DNA of 64,000 bases, from positions 1 through 64,000 of the forward strand of contig JANXAL010000112.1 of the NCBI GenBank assembly GCA_025062325.1. The letters are read 5' to 3'. The stretch comes from Roseiflexus sp. Its GTDB lineage: Bacteria > Chloroflexota > Chloroflexia > Chloroflexales > Roseiflexaceae. Position numbers and translations under genes: made by a program. Positions 10,164 to 36,966 of the stretch are shown piece by piece (position 1 is the first letter of the stretch; every line of letters starts with the position of its first letter). The notes below the pieces were generated by a model. The model worked only from the letters and a program-made list of their open reading frames with translations. It did not search any database and had not been told where the DNA came from.

Positions 10164-10466
10164 CTAGGCGAACTTCTCGCCGCGCACTACCTGCACGTCA
10201 TGGACGTAGGCAATAACTGCATAATTCGGGAAATAATGGTCTGCCATCGCGTCCATAATGCGGTCGGCAACTTCAGGCGAAACCAGTGTTTCGATCTTGA
10301 TATTGCCGCCCTGCCATTGGCTGGCGTGAATGCCGCGCGTGCCTTCGCCGTGCACCTCCGAGATGGTGTAGCCGTGGGCGCCGAGGGCGTAGATCTCGTG
10401 GATCAGGCGTTCCTTCAGCACCGGTTCGCCAATGATCGTTACTAACCGTACGGTCGTCAGTTTCAT
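10164..10466 (-). CDS. sbtB: PII-like protein SbtB
   Basis: The 100-residue protein starts [12 protein letters not shown] and shows the PII ferredoxin-like fold pattern: [18 protein letters not shown], then [16 protein letters not shown] leading into the T-loop, then [20 protein letters not shown]. SbtB proteins bind adenine nucleotides and dock onto the bicarbonate symporter SbtA to control it. The gene follows sbtA after 36 nt. The C-terminal Cys-containing extension of many cyanobacterial SbtB proteins is absent, so redox control through that tail is not expected. Confidence 0.88.
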
Positions 10467-10502
10467 ACCTTCGCTCCTTTCAACGCACTCCATTGTGCAT
10501 TA

Positions 10503-11501
10503 TCACATACGTCCGAGCACCGCGCCCAACCAGCGTGCATATTCATAATACAACGGCAGGCCAATGATGAGATTCACCGGAAGCGTGATTCCAAGCGACG
10601 ACGTCAGATAGATGCTCGGATTTGCCTGTGGGAAGGTAGCGCGCACAGCGGCGGGAGCGTCGATATATGACGAGCTGGCAGTGATCACGCCCAGAATAAA
10701 CGCGCCGTTGGGGGACAGGCCGGCCAGTAGACCGAGCGACGTGCCAATAATGCCGTGAATCAGCGGCATTACCGTCCCGAAAACTGCCATGAACGGACCA
10801 ACCTTGACAAAATCGCGCAATTGCCGGCCAGCGAGCATGCCCATTTCAATGAGGAAGAAGACCAGCACTCCGCGGAAGAGATCACCGTAGAGCGGTTTGA
10901 TGCGCGCGAATCCTTGCTCGCCGATAATGACGCCGATGAGCAGACCACCCACCAGCAACACCACGCTGCGCCCCGTGAGAGTGTCCCGAATGACCTTGCC
11001 CAGGCTGCCATCCTGCGCCTGACTCAACCCCATGCGCCAGCGCCCGATGAACAATGCTACGACGATCCCCCATTCCATCAGCGCTGCCAGCGCCGGAATG
11101 AACGCCTCGAAGGTGTTCTGTCCTTCCGGCAGGCGCTCGACGAAGGAGATGCCGGCAACGAATGTGACAGAGGAGACCGAACCGTAGTGCGCCGCGATGC
11201 CAGCCGCATTGGGAATATCGAACTTGCCGATCCCACGCAGAATCAGGTAGCACCATGTCGGCACGGCGATCGCCAGCGCAATGGTCACTAGCGCCGGCAA
11301 CAGGAACTGGCTGATCGTCGCTCCTGCCAGTTCGACGCCGCCGCTCAGACCGATAGAGAAGAGCAGATAGACCGAAATAGCCTTAATGATCGGTTCCGGG
11401 ATCTCAACCTCGCTCTTGATCAGGGTTGCGACAATGCCCAGGACGAACGCCAGCACCAGGGGTGACAACAGGTTGCTTCGGATGATCTCGATCGTGTCCA
11501 T
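10503..11501 (-). CDS. sbtA: sodium-dependent bicarbonate permease SbtA
   Basis: The 332-residue protein is almost entirely hydrophobic, with about ten membrane segments in two similar halves, as in the SbtA/DUF897 family. Recognisable blocks are SIGLSGGVELA, AAHYGSVSSVTF (bicarbonate/Na+ site region) and AVRATFPQANPSIYLTSSLGITLPVN near the end. It imports HCO3- with Na+. The ATG at 11501 has GAGGAGG just upstream; an ATG at 11528 is the alternative. It has its own promoter, with an upstream element shared with dabB, and is followed by sbtB. Confidence 0.92.
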   Translation of the reverse strand: MDTIEIIRSNLLSPLVLAFVLGIVATLIKSEVEIPEPIIKAISVYLLFSIGLSGGVELAGATISQFLLPALVTIALAIAVPTWCYLILRGIGKFDIPNAAGIAAHYGSVSSVTFVAGISFVERLPEGQNTFEAFIPALAALMEWGIVVALFIGRWRMGLSQAQDGSLGKVIRDTLTGRSVVLLVGGLLIGVIIGEQGFARIKPLYGDLFRGVLVFFLIEMGMLAGRQLRDFVKVGPFMAVFGTVMPLIHGIIGTSLGLLAGLSPNGAFILGVITASSSYIDAPAAVRATFPQANPSIYLTSSLGITLPVNLIIGLPLYYEYARWLGAVLGRM

Positions 11502-11541
11502 ACCCTCCTCAAAGACATGCAGAGACATTCCCGACACGTCA

Positions 11542-11600
11542 AATGTATCAGTGAACTGCAGTCTTTGTCAATATAAAGATTTCAGAGATGTAAAAAGACT
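11542..11600 (-). promoter_or_regulatory. sbtA promoter with a 35-bp element shared with dabB
   Basis: Read on the minus strand, the element occupies 11600 to 11566: AGTCTTT, then a variable middle, then TCTTTATATTGACA. Its last six bases are the -35 box TTGACA (11566-11571). An 18-bp spacer follows, then TACATT (11542-11547). The element upstream of dabB matches at 24 of 35 positions with no gap. Its position touching the -35 suits an activator. Confidence 0.75.
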
Positions 11601-11641
11601 ATACCTTTAGCGGATCTTGCTCCACAAACGGAGGAGACCAT

Positions 11642-13006
11642 TCAATCAGAATCGCGGCGCAGCATATACCCCTGTCCGCGCACGGCAATCAGTTTGCGGG
11701 GATGTTTGGGGTCAGGCTCGATCTTTTCACGGATGCGTTCGATGATCTTCTGCAACGCGCTGTCAGAGGGCGGGGAGACGGGCCAGATGGCGCGCTTGAC
11801 CTCTTCGCGGGAGCAGACGCGCCCGGCGTTTTCGCGCAGAAACGCATAAACCTCCCCTTCGAGATGAGTAAAGGCAGGCGGTGTTGCTGGCGCTACGGAG
11901 GGCAGCGGCGGCGCTGTTTCAGCGAAGGGCGCGCTAGGCTGGTCGGACAGCGCCTGAGCAAAAATGGCGGAGCTTATTCGCCAGCCGTGCCGGTCGCGCT
12001 GCGCTAGGCCGCGCAGGTGAAGCGCTTCGAAGAGCGCGGCTTCATCGGAAGACGATACGCGCTGCTGGTCGGTCAGGAACTGGCGCGCGTCCACTGCCGT
12101 GGTATGCATTTCTGTCAATTCGCGCCACCAGGATCGGCAGAGCGGGCGCGCCTCCTCAATCGCGGCGCGTTCGACGTCATCAACACTGTTCCCCTGATGC
12201 AGCCGCCAGTCGTAGACATGCGCAGCGGCGATCAGGAGCAACATGAGATTGGCGCCGCCAAGCCGCCGGATCCAGGCGCGGTCGGCGTCGCTCAGCACCG
12301 GCGCGCGTGCGAGCAATGCAGCAATCTCGGAGTCGGAGAGTTTGCCGAGGAAGAGCTCGCTGGCGAACAATCCCCAGAAGGACGACGGTTCGCGCAACTC
12401 ATTCATCGAATACAGGCGACTCAGCGGCGCACTCGCAGTGACCACATAGGCGACCCGCGCGCCAATATCGGGGTCCTGCGTCAGTGAACGCAGAAAACTG
12501 GCAGTGTGGCGCGGCAGGCGGGCAATCCCCTCGACATTGTCGATCAGAAAGACAAACGTGCGGTCGCCGTGTCGCCGGATCATGTCCTCAACTGTGCATT
12601 TGAGGGCATAGACTACATCGACGATCGCCGTTTCAGCGATGCCCTGATCCGGCAACGCGGGGAGATCATCGCGGATGGCAAGCGCCTGCGCGGTGGCGCG
12701 CGTCAGATCGCGCCAGAAGAAGAGGGCGCCGTGGCTTTGGGAGACGCCAAGATCGGCGTATGGACCAGCATTGACATAGGGGAAGACGAACCGTGCTGCA
12801 GGAGCGCCAGCGATGCCTGACGGCGCCAGCGCGGAGCTGCGCAGATAGTAGAGTAGCGAGGTCTTGCCGCTGCGAGCGTCGCCAACCAGCGCGCAGCACT
12901 GCGGTGGCGCCGCCGTCAGGCGTTCGTAGATGGCAGCGATGAGATCACGCCGTCCGGTGAAGCATTCCGGGTCGATGACCGGTTTGCGGTTGCCGAAAGG
13001 ATTCAT
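11642..13006 (-). CDS. STAND-like ATPase with C-terminal OmpR-type winged helix
   Basis: The 454-residue protein starts MNPFGNRKPVIDPECFTGR, followed by Walker A GDARSGKTS, Walker B TFVFLIDNVEG and an arginine-rich AAA/STAND core to about residue 300. The last ~75 residues form an OmpR/PhoB-type winged helix (LEGEVYAFLRENAGRVCSRE ... LIAVRGQGYML). It lies 41 nt beyond the upstream edge of the sbtA element and between the sbt and dab genes, so it is the best local candidate for their regulator; OmpR-type domains often bind direct repeats next to -35 boxes. The start at 13006 is preceded by GGCAGGCGGG. Confidence 0.8.
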   Translation of the reverse strand: MNPFGNRKPVIDPECFTGRRDLIAAIYERLTAAPPQCCALVGDARSGKTSLLYYLRSSALAPSGIAGAPAARFVFPYVNAGPYADLGVSQSHGALFFWRDLTRATAQALAIRDDLPALPDQGIAETAIVDVVYALKCTVEDMIRRHGDRTFVFLIDNVEGIARLPRHTASFLRSLTQDPDIGARVAYVVTASAPLSRLYSMNELREPSSFWGLFASELFLGKLSDSEIAALLARAPVLSDADRAWIRRLGGANLMLLLIAAAHVYDWRLHQGNSVDDVERAAIEEARPLCRSWWRELTEMHTTAVDARQFLTDQQRVSSSDEAALFEALHLRGLAQRDRHGWRISSAIFAQALSDQPSAPFAETAPPLPSVAPATPPAFTHLEGEVYAFLRENAGRVCSREEVKRAIWPVSPPSDSALQKIIERIREKIEPDPKHPRKLIAVRGQGYMLRRDSD

Positions 13007-13030
13007 ATGCCCGCCTGCCCTGCGCGACAT

Positions 13031-13073
13031 TGCTGACAATAACTATACCACACTTCGTGCAGGTATGTCAGCA
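13031..13073 (-). promoter_or_regulatory. promoter of the winged-helix regulator, with inverted repeat
   Basis: On the minus strand, CTGACA (13066-13071), an 18-bp spacer and TATAGT (13042-13047) form a promoter about 35 bp ahead of the start codon at 13006. An 8-bp inverted repeat, TGCTGACA (13031-13038) and TGTCAGCA (13066-13073), covers the -35 box and the likely transcription start. This is a plausible autorepression operator. Confidence 0.6.
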
Positions 13074-13138
13074 TGTCGACGGCGGAAGAGTGCAGTCATC
13101 AGCTGACAGTGTGGACGCCCCTGGTTGATGCGACATGC

Positions 13139-13241
13139 AGGAGGACACGGATTGTCACGGATCGAGACGGAGTCGCACAGATCAGTCGCTTCCTGCCTCA
13201 GATCCGTGTGAGTCCGTTGCATTCGTATGCATCCGTGTTCT
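13139..13241. repeat. CACGGATT-type palindromic element, copy 1
   Basis: Repeated words CACGGATT, CACGGATC and CACAGATC in the first half face ATCCGTGTGAGTCCGTTG and GCATCCGTGTTC in the second half, giving an imperfect palindrome of about 100 bp. The copy at 39779-39883 has the same order of words, including GGATCGAGACG and the central ATCAGTCGC/TTGATCGC. Confidence 0.7.
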
Positions 13242-13269
13242 CTTCACGCCAGGTTGCGCTCGCGCCTCG

Positions 13270-13641
13270 TCAGAACGTCACCGTCGTCGCGCCGACGCAC
13301 AGCGCCGCCATCTCTTCGATGCTTAGCGCGCGAACGTCGGGCAAAAGGCCATGATCGGCGCTGAGCCAGTAGCGCTGGAGACACGGCTGCGACAGATACA
13401 ACTTCCCTCCCGCTGCGCGATATGCATCACGCACCTCGCGCAAGGGCGGATACCCGGCTTCGTGCAAACTAGCGGCCCATCCCTCGGATGTCGCGCAGAG
13501 CACGCCTTCGCCACGCAGCAGAACCGCCACGCGATGCCCGGCGGCAAGTGCTGCGTTGGCTGTCAAAAATCCAAGGGTAGCAGCGCCGGGATCGCGCCCA
13601 GCATGGGTGATGATGATCACAAGTGGCAGTGTGGTCGTCAT
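13270..13641 (-). CDS. DsrE/DsrF-family small protein
   Basis: The 123-residue protein (MTTTLPLVIIITHAGRDPGA...) has the DsrE Rossmann-like pattern: a beta strand, then G-x-D-P, a helix, VAVLLRGEGV, and a C-terminal LPDVRALSIEEMAALC. Some family members carry sulfur as persulfide on a cysteine in the C-terminal half; here cysteines occur within KLYLSQPCLQRY and at MAALC. It lies between sbtA's regulator and dabA on the same strand. A role in carbon uptake is possible only by neighbourhood. A start at 13656 adds five residues. Confidence 0.7.
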   Translation of the reverse strand: MTTTLPLVIIITHAGRDPGAATLGFLTANAALAAGHRVAVLLRGEGVLCATSEGWAASLHEAGYPPLREVRDAYRAAGGKLYLSQPCLQRYWLSADHGLLPDVRALSIEEMAALCVGATTVTF

Positions 13642-13780
13642 TGCAGTAATGTCCATACGCTTATCTCTAGCCCTCGATCAAGGCATAAAACCCCGTAGGA
13701 GCCGCGTCTCGGGGGAAGCGTTGTTCAGGCGCAAGGAGCTCTCGCCACGCTCCAATCCTTTTCCTCATCCCCGTCTCTTC

Positions 13781-13957
13781 CTCTTAAGCGCAGGCTTTTT
13801 AGAGCGCGAAGCAGGGTTGCCGTCTCTTGCACCCTGTGTCCCCTCATCCCCCACCTTCTTCTCCCACGAGGGGAGAAGGGAAAGTTTGCGCATTGCGACA
13901 ATCAAACTGAGCGACGCAACGTATGGGCTTGCTGAAAAACCTATGCCTATATGAGCC
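13781..13957 (+). repeat. dispersed 175-bp intergenic element, copy B
   Basis: It has the same block order as the copy at 3033: CTCTTAAGCGCAGGCTTTTT, a core CTTCTTCTCCCACGAGGGG with GAGAAGGG, then GCGACGCAACGTATGGGCTT and a right end CTATGCCTATATGAGCC. It is more diverged than the others, particularly in the core. Confidence 0.7.
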
Positions 13958-14059
13958 TCTCCCGCCGGGGATAAGGGGGGAGGCCGCTCATCTGAAGCCT
14001 GTAGCGAGCGATGCAGTGAGAGATTGCCGGAAAAATCGATACCTTGTAAGGCAGGGGTT

Positions 14060-14094
14060 GTCTGGGCGTCGGGCGCTCCTCCAGACGCCCAGAC
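14060..14094 (-). terminator. possible terminator of the dabBA operon
   Basis: A perfect 11-bp stem, GTCTGGGCGTC (14060-14070) with GACGCCCAGAC (14084-14094), and a 13-nt loop lie about 40 bp beyond the dabA stop. No T-run follows on the minus strand, so termination strength is uncertain. Confidence 0.5.
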
Positions 14095-14135
14095 GAACGG
14101 CGCGGTCGGCGGCAGTTTCCCTCAACGCCGCTGGC

Positions 14136-16658
14136 TCAGCACGCCTCCCAGCGCAAACCGCCGACATACCGGTGCGTCACTCTGCCTTGCTCATTGAGCG
14201 CAAACAGGTAGAGCCAACCGTTGTCAAGCAACTGCCGTACCTGCGCGTGCCGGGCGATAATGTCGGTCATCGCCTCGATTGGCGCTTCGATCATCACGTG
14301 CAGGCGCATCGGCTCGTGAACGTACTTTTCGCCGTCGTGAACCGATTGCCACGGCAGCCCGACTCTCAGATCGCCGGAATTGCCCTCCAGTACGCCAAGC
14401 GTGCCGACGACGTTGTGCAGCGTTTTGTTGCCGCAGCCAAAGACCCGGTTGTCCACCGTCGAACCGTAGTACTGCAGATTGATCCAGCTTGCGACGATCA
14501 TCGGCGCCGTCATAATCAGTTCCAGCACACCGAAGCCTGCGTCTTGCCGCCAATCGTATGAGTGCAGGAAGGAGCGTCCATTCATCACTACTCCCGCTGT
14601 GCGGTCGCGCTGGGCGACGATAAACGCTGCACAACCCGCCAGACCCCACTCCGGGCGCACCTGCGACCAATCTCGGCTGCGGAACCGCACCGCACTGTCA
14701 ATGTCGGCCTTCGGATCGATCTTCAGCAGGGTTGATCGCTCGGCGCGCGCTAGCCGTCCGGCAGCGGCTAGATCCGCCTCCAGCCGCCTGAGATCATCGG
14801 TATGGCTCGCCGGAATGTCGGCTTTGTCGAAAATCACCACATCATCAGTCGTGGTGTCGTGCAACCCAGCCACGAAAACGGTGTCGTCGGGGATGATGAT
14901 GCCACGCTCTTTCAATCCGGCGCGCACCGCCGGATCGTTCAGAATCTGCACCGCCACCCGCACATTCGCCTCGCCGGTGTGGCCGCCGCACGCGCCGCAA
15001 TCGAGACCTGTCGCGTGCGGGTTGTTGACGGTCGTTGAGCCATGCCCGACAAGCAGCACAATGCGGGCAAAGTTGGTCGTCAGCGACATTGCCTTGAGCG
15101 CGCCCGCAGCAGCAGCCACCCGCTGCTCCAGCGTCATGCCGGTCACGCGCCCGCCAATGACGCGCGGTTCGAGGCTGGGCTTGACGCGCTCACGGGTGTG
15201 CGCGTCCAGTCCAAAGGTCGCCGGGTGCGGCACAGGACGGGTAATCCCTAGCATATCGAGCACCAGTTTGCGCACATATGCCAGCCCGACCGGACCGACG
15301 AACCCGAAGCAGGAGATCGGTCCGAACTTGAACATACGCCAGGCTTTGGCGACGCGCTGGTTCATTGCACGTTTCTCAATAGCGGCAGCCACCTCGGTCT
15401 CAGATGCGCCGCGGACTGACTCGGCGATCACGAACTGCGGCGTAAACAGAACTGGGCACTGCGCGCCGCCGCGGGTTTCCGCCAGCGGCACATATTCGAT
15501 AAAGAACCCGAAGAACCCGGCAAAACCGATCGTCTCAATCTCGTCAGTTACCGTCTCAAGGGCGCGGCGGAAGATTTCGGAGCGCACATCGATGCAGAAA
15601 GCCGCCTGCACCCGCTTTCGCGCCGGGGGTGCAGCCGGGGTCCGTGCGCCAAGGCGAGCGAACAACTGACGCTGATAGGATTTCTCAAAGGCGCGCTGGA
15701 GCAAGAGATCGCCAGCGATGATGCGCCGGGTCGCTTCGTCCAGCCGGTCATTCACCAGTTCATCTGTCCGAGAGAGCCACGCTCTCGCCAGCCCCTTGTG
15801 CGCAAAGCTGCGCCAGAGCGCTACTTCCCACACCAGGCGGATTGCCAGCAGGTCGGTAAGCGTGTGGTCTTCGCCGCCGTAGAGCTCAGCTTGCCAGCGC
15901 AGGTAGCGCGCATAACTGGCCCAACCGTGAATGGTCAGCAGGAGCCGGTGCAGATACGCCTCGAGCCCATCGGCAGGAATGTTCAACAGCTCCACTGCGG
16001 CGACAATCGTCTCCATCGCCGACTCTGACAGTTCGCGCAGCGCCTGTTGGAAGGCATGCACGCCGCGCGTCTGCGGGGTGCGATCATGCGCTGCCTCGGC
16101 GCGCCATGCGGCATACGCCGGGAGATCAGCCCACGGTGATCGCCAGTAGGACTGGCCTAGATCGAAGTATGCGCCAGCCCAGTTGGAAATTGCGTCGGTC
16201 ACAATATCCGCCCAGTTGACGCCGGTCACCTCGCGGGCGACATCGGCGACAGTGGGCAGCGGCTTGAAGGTCGGCTCTTTCGTGTCGCTTAGCGCAAACG
16301 CCTTGAGCGCCTCGACCGTCGCAGGAGCGTCGGGGTGCGGGATGCCCTCCGCCAACGCCGCAGCCAGATCGGCATCGGTAATGCGCCCGTTCCTGATCGC
16401 CTGCGCATAGAACGAGCGCGGAGCGGTCATGCGGGCGCCAGCCCGGTGCGCCAGCAGTTCAGCGGCATCCTCAAAGGAGTGGTCGATCAGACCAAGATAC
16501 GGATTGACTGCCACAAAATAGCGCAGGGGCCACAGTGGAGCAATACGTTGTTCGGCGCGCCTCACCGCCGCTGCAATCATGTCGACCGTGATCATTCGAA
16601 GCGGCGCGGCTATCATAGGCGCAGGGCGATCGCGGGTTTCAGCTAGATGCACAATCAT
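14136..16658 (-). CDS. dabA: inorganic carbon transporter subunit DabA (DUF2309)
   Basis: The 840-residue protein is the carbonic-anhydrase-like subunit of DAB complexes, which hydrate CO2 to bicarbonate on the cytoplasmic side, driven by ion flow through DabB. The zinc-site residues described for this family are present: C355 and D357 in AAFCIDVRSE, H539 in LLVGHGS and C554 in GLDCGACGG. The 15-residue H-to-C spacing equals that of the characterised Halothiobacillus protein, and the length is usual. The start has GGAGGGAG 7-8 nt upstream. It follows dabB by 37 nt. Confidence 0.93.
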   Translation of the reverse strand: MIVHLAETRDRPAPMIAAPLRMITVDMIAAAVRRAEQRIAPLWPLRYFVAVNPYLGLIDHSFEDAAELLAHRAGARMTAPRSFYAQAIRNGRITDADLAAALAEGIPHPDAPATVEALKAFALSDTKEPTFKPLPTVADVAREVTGVNWADIVTDAISNWAGAYFDLGQSYWRSPWADLPAYAAWRAEAAHDRTPQTRGVHAFQQALRELSESAMETIVAAVELLNIPADGLEAYLHRLLLTIHGWASYARYLRWQAELYGGEDHTLTDLLAIRLVWEVALWRSFAHKGLARAWLSRTDELVNDRLDEATRRIIAGDLLLQRAFEKSYQRQLFARLGARTPAAPPARKRVQAAFCIDVRSEIFRRALETVTDEIETIGFAGFFGFFIEYVPLAETRGGAQCPVLFTPQFVIAESVRGASETEVAAAIEKRAMNQRVAKAWRMFKFGPISCFGFVGPVGLAYVRKLVLDMLGITRPVPHPATFGLDAHTRERVKPSLEPRVIGGRVTGMTLEQRVAAAAGALKAMSLTTNFARIVLLVGHGSTTVNNPHATGLDCGACGGHTGEANVRVAVQILNDPAVRAGLKERGIIIPDDTVFVAGLHDTTTDDVVIFDKADIPASHTDDLRRLEADLAAAGRLARAERSTLLKIDPKADIDSAVRFRSRDWSQVRPEWGLAGCAAFIVAQRDRTAGVVMNGRSFLHSYDWRQDAGFGVLELIMTAPMIVASWINLQYYGSTVDNRVFGCGNKTLHNVVGTLGVLEGNSGDLRVGLPWQSVHDGEKYVHEPMRLHVMIEAPIEAMTDIIARHAQVRQLLDNGWLYLFALNEQGRVTHRYVGGLRWEAC

Positions 16659-16695
16659 TGTTTCTCCCTCCAGCAGTATGGTACAGAGTCGCAGA

Positions 16696-18276
16696 TCAGC
16701 GAGCTAGTCGAAGTGAGTCCATCAGCCGGTCAATCAGCGTGTTGGCGTAAAAGCCGTTCTTGAGGTGGACATAGAGCGCCCGCCAGGCAGGGCGGCTTGC
16801 CAGCGCCGGTAAGAAGGCGCTGAGCGCCATCACCACGCCAGAGGCAACGACTGCAATCACGACTGCAACCATCGTCGGCGCATTGAGCGGCGGATACACT
16901 GCTATTGCCCGACCGAGCAGCGCCTCAGCGGTCACTTCCAGCGCAAAGAAGGCAATCGTTACCAGGACAGCCATTGCCGTCGTGCGCGTGATGACGTAGA
17001 GAGGCGCGCGATTGGTGTTGCCCTTCACCAGCAGATAAGCGACGGCAAGCATAAAAATGGTGATTGTCGCGGTTTCTCCCGGTCGTTTGGTGATGTCGAT
17101 GCCAATTGCAGTGGCGACTGCCAGAAAGATGACCACTGCTAGGGCCATGTTCGCAAGCAGACTGAGCAGATGCGGCGCGGTATCCAGCTTCTGAGCGCCG
17201 GTGTTCCGCACGTACTCGATGATGCTGCCCGATGATAGGAAGGCGTGCGCCTTGTAGCAGGAATGAGCGATAAGATGCATTATTGCGACAGTGTGCGCGC
17301 CAAACCCGCATAGCATCAGCATGAACCCCATGTGCGCCGCGCTCGAATATGCCAGCGAGACCTTGACAGCGGTCTGCGTAATCATTGAGGACGATGCGAA
17401 GATCGCAGTGAACCCGCCAAGCGCAATCAGCAGAATCAGCGCCGGAGTTGACAGGAACACTAGTTCGCCAAAGCGCACCACCAGGAAGATGCCTGCATTG
17501 AGCAGACCAGCGTGCAGCAGCGCCGAGACGGGAGTTGGCGTTTCCATCACTTCAAGCAGCCAGCCATGGAACGGGAACATTGCTGACTTCAGCGCCGCAA
17601 CGATCACGATTAGGACTGCGGCAACAGTAGCGTTCGCGGGGATGTTGCCACTCGCAAGCGCTGCCGCAGCCGCCTCGCGGATCATGCCCAGGTCGGTCGT
17701 GCCGAAGGTCTGCGCGAGGAGCACAGCGGCAACGATCAGACACACATCGCCGATGCGAGCGAAGATAAACTTCTTGCGGGCTGCCCGAATAGCGCGCGGG
17801 CGCTCAGGGTAGAACACCAGCAGTTCGTGCAGCGCGAGGCTCATCCCAATCCACGCCAGCGTCAGTTGCCAGAGATTGCCCGACAGCACCATCAATAGAA
17901 CGGCGCTGACCGTCAGGTAGAGGCGGATGAAGAAGATCCTCTGGCGCGGGTCGCCGTCAAGATAGTTGCGGCTGAACTGGATGAGCAACGTGCCTAGCAA
18001 CGTCACCAGCCATGACATCATGACGCTCAATGCATCAAGACGCAGCGCAAGGCCAGCGTCGCCGACGCCGATCAACGGACTGACCATCGGACCAGAGGTG
18101 AAGACCATTATTCCAAGTCCGAGCAGCAGCCCGAACGAACCAATGCTAGCCGCGCGTCCGAGCTGGAACGTCAGATTAACCGACCGCGTCAGGGACGCGA
18201 TAAGCGCCGCGACTGCCAGCGACAGCGGTGCAAGATACCCGAGCAGCGCCAGATTGCCGACCACCGTACTGTCCAT
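16696..18276 (-). CDS. dabB: proton-conducting membrane subunit DabB (NuoL/MrpA-like)
   Basis: The 526-residue protein has about 13-14 membrane segments and resembles the antiporter-like subunits of complex I. Typical blocks are LALHELLVFYPERPRAIRAA, KSAMFPFHGWLLEVMETPTP-VSALLHAGLLNAG and LAYSSAAHMGFML. In DAB systems it conducts H+ or Na+ and energises the DabA reaction. The adjacent dabA, rather than nuo or mrp genes, shows it is not a respiratory subunit. It is the first gene of the operon, behind the promoter with the shared 35-bp element. Confidence 0.9.
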   Translation of the reverse strand: MDSTVVGNLALLGYLAPLSLAVAALIASLTRSVNLTFQLGRAASIGSFGLLLGLGIMVFTSGPMVSPLIGVGDAGLALRLDALSVMMSWLVTLLGTLLIQFSRNYLDGDPRQRIFFIRLYLTVSAVLLMVLSGNLWQLTLAWIGMSLALHELLVFYPERPRAIRAARKKFIFARIGDVCLIVAAVLLAQTFGTTDLGMIREAAAAALASGNIPANATVAAVLIVIVAALKSAMFPFHGWLLEVMETPTPVSALLHAGLLNAGIFLVVRFGELVFLSTPALILLIALGGFTAIFASSSMITQTAVKVSLAYSSAAHMGFMLMLCGFGAHTVAIMHLIAHSCYKAHAFLSSGSIIEYVRNTGAQKLDTAPHLLSLLANMALAVVIFLAVATAIGIDITKRPGETATITIFMLAVAYLLVKGNTNRAPLYVITRTTAMAVLVTIAFFALEVTAEALLGRAIAVYPPLNAPTMVAVVIAVVASGVVMALSAFLPALASRPAWRALYVHLKNGFYANTLIDRLMDSLRLAR

Positions 18277-18318
18277 AGCGATAGTCCCTCCTTCTGTTCG
18301 TTGCCTGTCCTGAGACAG

Positions 18319-18376
18319 AGAATATCGGAGATTATCGTCAATGTCAATATAAAGACATCAAGACATCCGAAAGACT
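18319..18376 (-). promoter_or_regulatory. dabB promoter with a 35-bp element shared with sbtA
   Basis: On the minus strand, the element runs from 18376 to 18342: AGTCTTT, then ATGTCTT, GATG and TCTTTATATTGACA. The -35 TTGACA (18342-18347), a 17-bp spacer and TATTCT (18319-18324) form the promoter. The element contains TCTT three times, at relative positions 3, 14 and 22. It aligns without gaps to the element at 11566-11600. Confidence 0.75.
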
Positions 18377-18459
18377 CTTTTTTTGATGGATGTTCCTCGA
18401 CGGATGGAGGGGATGGAGAGGATCATAAGGGCAAGTCTGAGACTCGTCCCGTCTGCATA

Positions 18460-20095: not shown

Positions 20096-20441
20096 ATGAA
20101 CGCCAATACTGTGTTAATTGCAGATGGTGACCGTGCGATAGTTCAGTTGACCACTTATATTATCCAGAAAAGTTATGGGGGAGTATATGTTGTAAGTGCA
20201 AGTGATGGCGTAGAAGCGCTCCATCAAATCAACAAGCATTCTCTACCCCTTTTGATTCTTGATTTAGTGATGCCAAGGAAGTCAGGTATCGATGTGTTGA
20301 AGGAGTCATTTCGTCGCAGTGCCTGTTATTGTTTTCTCGGCACACGTGAGCTCAAAAGAAGAGGCCGCAAAGCTTTTAGAAATAGAGAGTGATTGTCTAG
20401 AATTCTTGAGTAAGCCATTCGATTTCGAAGAGCTGTTGTGA
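20096..20441 (+). pseudogene. response regulator receiver domain, frameshifted
   Basis: The N-terminal part has the acidic pair (IADGD, residues 10 and 12) and phosphoacceptor D56 in LLILDLVMP. After residue ~70 the frame fails. The +1 frame from about 20307 continues a normal receiver ending, VPVIVFSAHVSSKEEAAKLL then FLSKPFDFEELL, including the conserved K of KPF, to a TGA at 20439-20441. One extra base (or a two-base loss) near 20300 explains this. The gene is visibly AT-richer than its surroundings and stands alone between repeats without a kinase, which suggests a transferred and decayed gene. Confidence 0.8.
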
Positions 20442-36889: not shown

Positions 36890-36966
36890 CTTTACCACGA
36901 AGACACAAAGACACGAAAGAGAAAAAAACCATTAGTTCCTTCGCAGCTTCGTGGCTTTGCGGTTGA
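36890..36966. repeat. CACGAAGACACAAAG repeat, left flank of the GxxExxY gene
   Basis: ACCACGAAGACACAAAGACA with CACGAAAGAGA reads toward the gene, followed by CCTTCGCAGCTTCGTGGCTT. Complementary words occur on the other side of the gene at 37378-37466. A weaker remnant (GACACGAAGACCCAAAGACG) lies near 26449 in the nuoE-nuoD gap. Confidence 0.7.

Follow-up and report, generated by a model that had tools for sequence, protein, structure and literature searches.

The locus described here raises the question of how uptake of inorganic carbon is controlled in Roseiflexus, and specifically whether the two uptake operons that lie close together on it are read by one protein. The window is the whole stretch of 64,000 nucleotides that was analysed. 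The genes concerned are the following:

10164-10493, minus strand: sbtB, PII-like partner of SbtA (PF00543), adjoining sbtA
10503-11501, minus strand: sbtA, Na+-dependent bicarbonate transporter (PF05982, Sbt_1, 346 bits), start ATG at 11501
11642-13006, minus strand: candidate regulator of 454 residues, with an N-terminal P-loop ATPase and a C-terminal OmpR-type winged helix
14136-16658, minus strand: dabA (PF10070, 936 bits)
16696-18276, minus strand: dabB, proton-antiporter-like subunit of the DAB inorganic-carbon complex (PF00361, 138 bits)

SbtA was identified as a bicarbonate transporter by its Sbt_1 domain together with the adjacent gene for the PII-like SbtB, and the DAB complex by a DabA domain and a proton-antiporter-like DabB that are encoded together. 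The regulator gene is located between dabBA and sbtAB, directly upstream of sbtA and on the same strand. Upstream of sbtA and dabB, the promoter regions contain these features:

11507-11537, minus strand: second array, within the sbtA leader; it lies downstream of the predicted start site and ahead of the start codon, and reaches the ribosome-binding region
11542-11547, minus strand: sbtA -10 box TACATT, 18-bp spacer
11566-11571, minus strand: sbtA -35 box TTGACA
11566-11600, minus strand: 35-bp element upstream of sbtA; array 11572-11601, plus-strand units TATAAAGATTT, TTCAGAGATGT and TAAAAAGACTA
18319-18324, minus strand: dabB -10 box TATTCT, 17-bp spacer
18342-18347, minus strand: dabB -35 box TTGACA
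18342-18376, minus strand: 35-bp element upstream of dabB; array 18348-18377, plus-strand units TATAAAGACAT, CATCAAGACAT and CCGAAAGACTC

The initial annotation had described one 35-bp element shared by the two promoters, each followed by a -10 box, and the boxes and spacers are present as described. Aligned without gaps, the two upstream regions agree at best at 24 of 35 positions, and their longest common word is 14 bp. The 4.73-Mb genome contains this 14-mer, TCTTTATATTGACA, only twice, at 11566-11579 (sbtA) and at 18342-18355 (dabB), in both cases on the minus strand. In dinucleotide shuffles, a 24/35 match was reached in 2 of 3000 trials and a common 14-mer in none of 3000. The likeness between the sbtA and dabB elements exceeds chance. 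When two mismatches were allowed, the 14-mer found 8 extra sites genome-wide, compared to 6 for a reversed control pattern. A pattern of the 35-mer with at most three mismatches at defined positions matched at dabB only; therefore, what the two promoters have in common is the 14-mer and a repeated unit, and not the whole 35-mer.

Short units arranged in tandem make up the element. The unit reads RTCTTT on the coding strand and TATAAAGAY on the reverse strand and is spaced by 8-11 bp, and the array abuts the -35 box. The coding strand holds three RTCTTT-like units, and the last of them runs into TATATTGACA. While the outer units are 18-20 bp apart, the position of the middle unit varies, giving spacings of 10+9 or 9+9 bp at sbtA and 11+8 or 10+8 bp at dabB. 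With this irregular spacing of 8-11 bp, self-matching at a fixed 10-bp period was inconsistent across the Roseiflexus arrays. With start sites predicted from the -10 boxes as reference, the upstream arrays of Roseiflexus span about -64 to -39. The array in the sbtA leader was absent from the initial annotation. It has the form GTC-N6-RTCYYT-N4-RTCTTTGAGG, is kept in all six genomes of the genus, and scores a weak 12.7 bits in this genome and a strong 28.9 bits in G009. At the promoter of the regulator gene itself, no array was seen in Roseiflexus.

The initial annotation had proposed a candidate inorganic-carbon regulon and suggested scans of this genome and of related ones. The other five genomes of the genus have orthologues of sbtA and dabB, and each of the six has the element at both promoters. 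It is also kept at dabB in G005, which belongs to another genus of the same family; this genome has lost most of sbtA along with its promoter and has retained the regulator and the dabB element. The relaxed pattern TCTYTATATTGAYR matches exactly the sbtA and dabB promoters in five of the six genus genomes, and only sbtA in G013, because dabB reads ...GACT there, a one-base difference. At dabB, the element has 23 of 35 invariant positions, compared to 1 of 35 in the upstream flank, so that the conservation argument holds. At sbtA, the corresponding values are 22 of 35 and 22 of 36, and conservation alone was rejected as proof at this promoter because the upstream bases are conserved to the same degree.

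Reciprocal profiles were built from the dabB sites alone and from the sbtA sites alone, and 26 whole genomes from the family were searched with each. With the sbtA profile, dabB is the next match behind sbtA in each of the six genus genomes and is the sole match in G005. With the dabB profile, sbtA ranks second in G000, G011, G012 and G013 and third in G009, and is missed in G010. The E-values of these cross matches are weak, mostly 0.02 to 2 (best 6.5e-5), and it is therefore rank and recurrence that count. Neither the exact nor the relaxed scans, nor the profile scans over the 26 family genomes, gave a third regulon member recurring between genomes. Extra matches inside a Mg-chelatase-like gene in G005 and at a dnaN-like promoter in G001 look like chance, and a match of 17.9 bits upstream of a trmD-like gene in the window (36896-36923) consists of a CACGAAGACACAAAGACAC run and resembles a dispersed repeat. 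Neither of the outcomes by which the initial annotation would have been refuted was observed: instead of occurring at many promoters, the element is restricted to sbtA and dabB, and it is conserved at their orthologues. Its specificity for these two operons, and with it a putative inorganic-carbon regulon of two operons, is well supported by genome comparison.

Which protein could read these sites? The initial annotation had pointed to the OmpR-type winged-helix protein encoded between them. The winged helix is clearly recognized, with Trans_reg_C (PF00486) at 51 bits against a cut-off of 26.2 over residues 379-449, and its nearest solved structures are those of WalR/VicR (VicR/YycF by Foldseek). 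The N-terminal part matches AAA_16 and nSTAND1 below the curated Pfam cut-offs. It contains Walker A and B motifs (GDARSGKTSLL and FLIDN in the first sequence) with conserved core residues, i.e., the P-loop NTPase core of STAND proteins. In an AlphaFold2 model with a mean pLDDT of 78.9, the best Foldseek matches of the ATPase part are the archaeal ATPases 2qen and 2fna, and Cdc6/ORC. Pfam gave no Response_reg match, and since the N terminus is a P-loop ATPase rather than a receiver, the protein does not belong to the response regulators. Additionally, no TPR, WD40 or similar sensor repeats, and no LysR helix-turn-helix or substrate-binding domain, were found in its 454 residues, which end in the winged helix. 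The architecture also differs from that of SARPs, which have an N-terminal OmpR-type domain followed by BTA; here the winged helix is C-terminal and BTA gave no match. The regulator is an AAA_16/STAND-like P-loop ATPase with a C-terminal winged helix. The protein proposed in the initial annotation remains the likely binder; its ATPase part had been overlooked there.

Full-length orthologues of the regulator were found in 10 of 158 genomes of the class (E <= 1e-30), which are the six genus genomes, G005, and G074, G051 and G064 from a second family, Chloroflexaceae. In all ten, the gene adjoins sbtAB, dabBA or both, and the gene order takes three forms: dabBA, regulator, sbtAB in Roseiflexus and, with an sbtA remnant, in G005; regulator divergent from sbtAB in G074; and dabBA, regulator in G051 and G064. 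Through these three arrangements, both SbtA and DAB are connected with a single control protein. Between the families, the winged-helix stretch SDSALQK.IERIREKIE shows little or no variation. Genomes that have sbtA or dabB and no regulator, namely G001, G004 and several of the genus g9, also lack the element; in G001, G004 and G015-G017, the transporter is present without regulator and without arrays. A relative of the regulator in Ktedonobacteraceae (L119, 29%) has no carbon-uptake genes beside it on its 6-kb contig.

In the Chloroflexaceae, the unit recurs at different positions. The dabB promoter of G051 contains four units at exact 10-bp spacing (AAAGATATTC, AAGGATTTAT, AAAGATACAA and AAAGACAAAG), the first of them in the -10 box, and the equivalent promoter of G064 likewise has four units at exact 10-bp spacing from the -10 box. 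In G074, about five units at sbtA begin in the spacer and continue beyond the start, and although dabBA is on another contig than the regulator, its promoter holds three units at exact 10-bp spacing. Collectively, the Chloroflexaceae arrays cover about -26 to +28, over the -10 box and the start (again predicted from the -10 boxes). The promoters of second sbtA paralogues in these genomes have no units.

The 8-mer TATAAAGA, which is the Roseiflexus 14-mer without the -35 box and was fixed beforehand, is present in four of four promoters of the second family, with shuffle p values of 0.024 (G074 sbtA), 0.009 (G064) and <0.001 (dabB of G051 and G074). It is absent from the control promoters, i.e., those of regulator-negative genomes and of the sbtA2 paralogues. 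Counts of AARGAY give the same contrast, weaker at Roseiflexus dabB. A unit matrix built from the second family only scores 15.7-29.8 bits at Roseiflexus sbtA and dabB, compared to shuffle means of 1-6 and controls at background, and over 1.2 Mb of G009 it reaches at least 18 bits only at both promoters and the sbtA leader. This matrix test is not blind, because the units were picked by eye once the Roseiflexus motif was known; the TATAAAGA test is less exposed to such choice. Self-matching at a fixed 10-bp period is clearly significant in the second-family dabB promoters only. The independent lineages are few, with two in the second family.

Arrays of the same unit thus accompany the regulator, and are linked to it, in two families. 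We infer that the arrays at sbtA and dabB are, in all probability, the operator of the winged-helix ATPase at 11642-13006. Winged-helix copies of the regulator would bind side by side to tandem TATAAAGAY / RTCTTTATA units 8-11 bp apart, and both uptake operons would answer to it together. Judging from the target genes alone, the signal is presumably inorganic-carbon status, which the ATPase domain would sense or relay. Most likely, the sign of regulation would depend on the position of the array. For the cyanobacterial regulator RpaB, sites at -45 to -66 activate and sites at -38 to +23 repress (PMC13421787). By analogy, the Roseiflexus array next to the -35 box would activate, the array in the sbtA leader would act as a brake, and the Chloroflexaceae arrays over the -10 box and start would repress; we see the chances of such a position-dependent effect as evenly balanced. 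The activator reading implies opposite signs in the two families, which counts against it. The initial annotation had regarded the element as a class II activator site. There is an upstream array where an activator could act; however, activation is not established, because the Chloroflexaceae units lie over the -10 box and start and the Roseiflexus sbtA arrays flank the promoter.

A repressor acting in both families is a serious alternative, to which we give somewhat less than an even chance. The same regulator would then sit against the -35 box in Roseiflexus or on the -10 box and start in Chloroflexaceae, and be released when inorganic carbon is scarce. This alternative overlaps with our main explanation, because the binder is shared and only the sign differs. 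The promoters are of a strong sigma-70 type with TTGACA or near-TTGACA -35 boxes and 17-18-bp spacers (TTGACA-18-TATAAT at G074 sbtA), as a repressed promoter might be, but a near-consensus -35 box is compatible with an activator too. The location of the Chloroflexaceae arrays (about -26 to +28) and of Roseiflexus sbtA between two arrays would suit repression, for which the repression of sbtA by CcmR at high carbon is a precedent (PMC3401165). In contrast, the sole array seen at Roseiflexus dabB is upstream of the -35 box, at about -63 to -39, within the activating range of RpaB.

The remaining alternatives concern the binder itself. The arrays could be genuine operators of another protein, e.g., an RpaB/WalR-type response regulator, with the linked ATPase acting otherwise. 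Genomes of the order encode many Trans_reg_C proteins, and the solved winged helices nearest to that of the regulator are WalR/VicR, but in the genomes tested the arrays track the presence and absence of the regulator orthologue, including its absence from G001, G004 and G015-G017, which makes another binder unlikely. A dimeric regulator of the CRP/FNR or LysR type might instead recognize a palindrome TGTC-N8-GACA that the proximal unit makes up together with the -35 box, as read in Roseiflexus dabB (ATGTCTTTATATTGACAT) and as TATC...GATA in G005. However, the arms do not covary (G/T in G012 dabB, A/C in G010 and G013 dabB, mostly A/C at sbtA), for which reason the palindromic reading of the dabB site was rejected, and the palindrome is absent from Chloroflexaceae, where the unit alone repeats; we consider a dimeric regulator very improbable. 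An AT-rich, UP-element-like promoter flank or a chance likeness would need no dedicated protein at all. The -35 box does account for nearly half of the 14-mer, and its AT-rich flank fits as well, yet only two promoters per genome carry the element, the unit is absent where the regulator is absent, it is found downstream of the -10 box in the second family, and it occurs in either orientation. This explanation has almost no probability left.

If the regulator is the binder, the Chloroflexales might possess a hitherto undescribed, dedicated inorganic-carbon switch that belongs to neither the LysR nor the AbrB family, a winged-helix P-loop ATPase in joint control of SbtA and DAB, whose operator moved between a start-site position with repression and a position upstream of -35 with activation while the recognition domain remained nearly unchanged. 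We propose this tentatively, as something rather doubtful; an operator shift of this kind, if true, would clearly exemplify regulatory rewiring. A named candidate regulator, a defined site and a two-operon regulon make control of carbon uptake directly testable. In the full-text literature, from which subscription journals are mostly absent, we found neither a description of how inorganic-carbon uptake is controlled in Chloroflexota nor a two-operon SbtA/DAB carbon regulon made of such parts.

Among known systems, RpaB and its HLR1 site in cyanobacteria resemble the present case in several ways. RpaB, of the OmpR family, is the best NCBIfam match for the winged-helix domain, although far below the cut-off, its site is a tandem direct repeat, and its position rule fits both array positions found here. 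However, RpaB is a response regulator of light genes with a histidine kinase partner, while here an ATPase domain replaces the receiver; its unit is KTTACAWW and not TATAAAGAY, and the regulon here consists of two carbon-uptake operons. The STAND-type regulators AfsR/SARP and MalT similarly couple a P-loop ATPase to a DNA-binding domain, and in AfsR it is also an OmpR-type winged helix that recognizes tandem repeats in the -35 region (PMC10936776). They differ in that our candidate has its winged helix at the C terminus and neither BTA nor a recognized TPR sensor, and in that the AfsR repeats are 11-bp units overlapping the spacer and the -35 element. Joint control of sbtA and other inorganic-carbon transporters is known from the cyanobacterial CcmR/NdhR, CmpR and AbrB-type regulators (PMC3401165). 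The cyanobacterial carbon regulators in the literature examined are LysR or AbrB proteins, unrelated to the present regulator in domain architecture and DNA site. The OmpR-type winged helix, the P-loop ATPase, SbtA and DAB are thus all of known kinds, and it is their combination that we did not find in the literature examined.

In G009, a complete genome of the same genus, sbtA falls into two overlapping segments (loci L009 and L027) that lie in different reading frames and cover positions 1-86 and 85-332 of the query. This suggests a frameshift or a sequencing error, and both promoter arrays are intact despite the split reading frame. In G005, which belongs to another genus of the family, sbtA is reduced to about 57 C-terminal codons (L111:11714-12208), and its promoter was lost along with most of the gene. 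Here, the regulator gene is directly followed by the sbtA remnant and then by sbtB. Several genomes also carry a second SbtA paralogue of about 50-56% identity (e.g., G000:C119:100026-100979); the promoters of this gene and its relatives carry no array.

Within the window, positions 36896-36923, upstream of a trmD-like gene, hold a CACGAAGACACAAAGACAC-type run that resembles the array unit and is probably a dispersed repeat. Two other genes were noted:
13270-13656, gene of a DsrE-like protein, between dabA and the regulator gene
20096-20392, short ORF encoding a response-regulator receiver domain, with an early end

The matches of the DsrE-like protein in G005 are fragments only, and the receiver-domain ORF looks truncated.

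A relative of the candidate winged-helix regulator, with 29% identity, is encoded in Ktedonobacteraceae (L119:3467-4942). No carbon-uptake genes adjoin it within its contig sequence, and a RelA/SpoT-like gene lies upstream of it.
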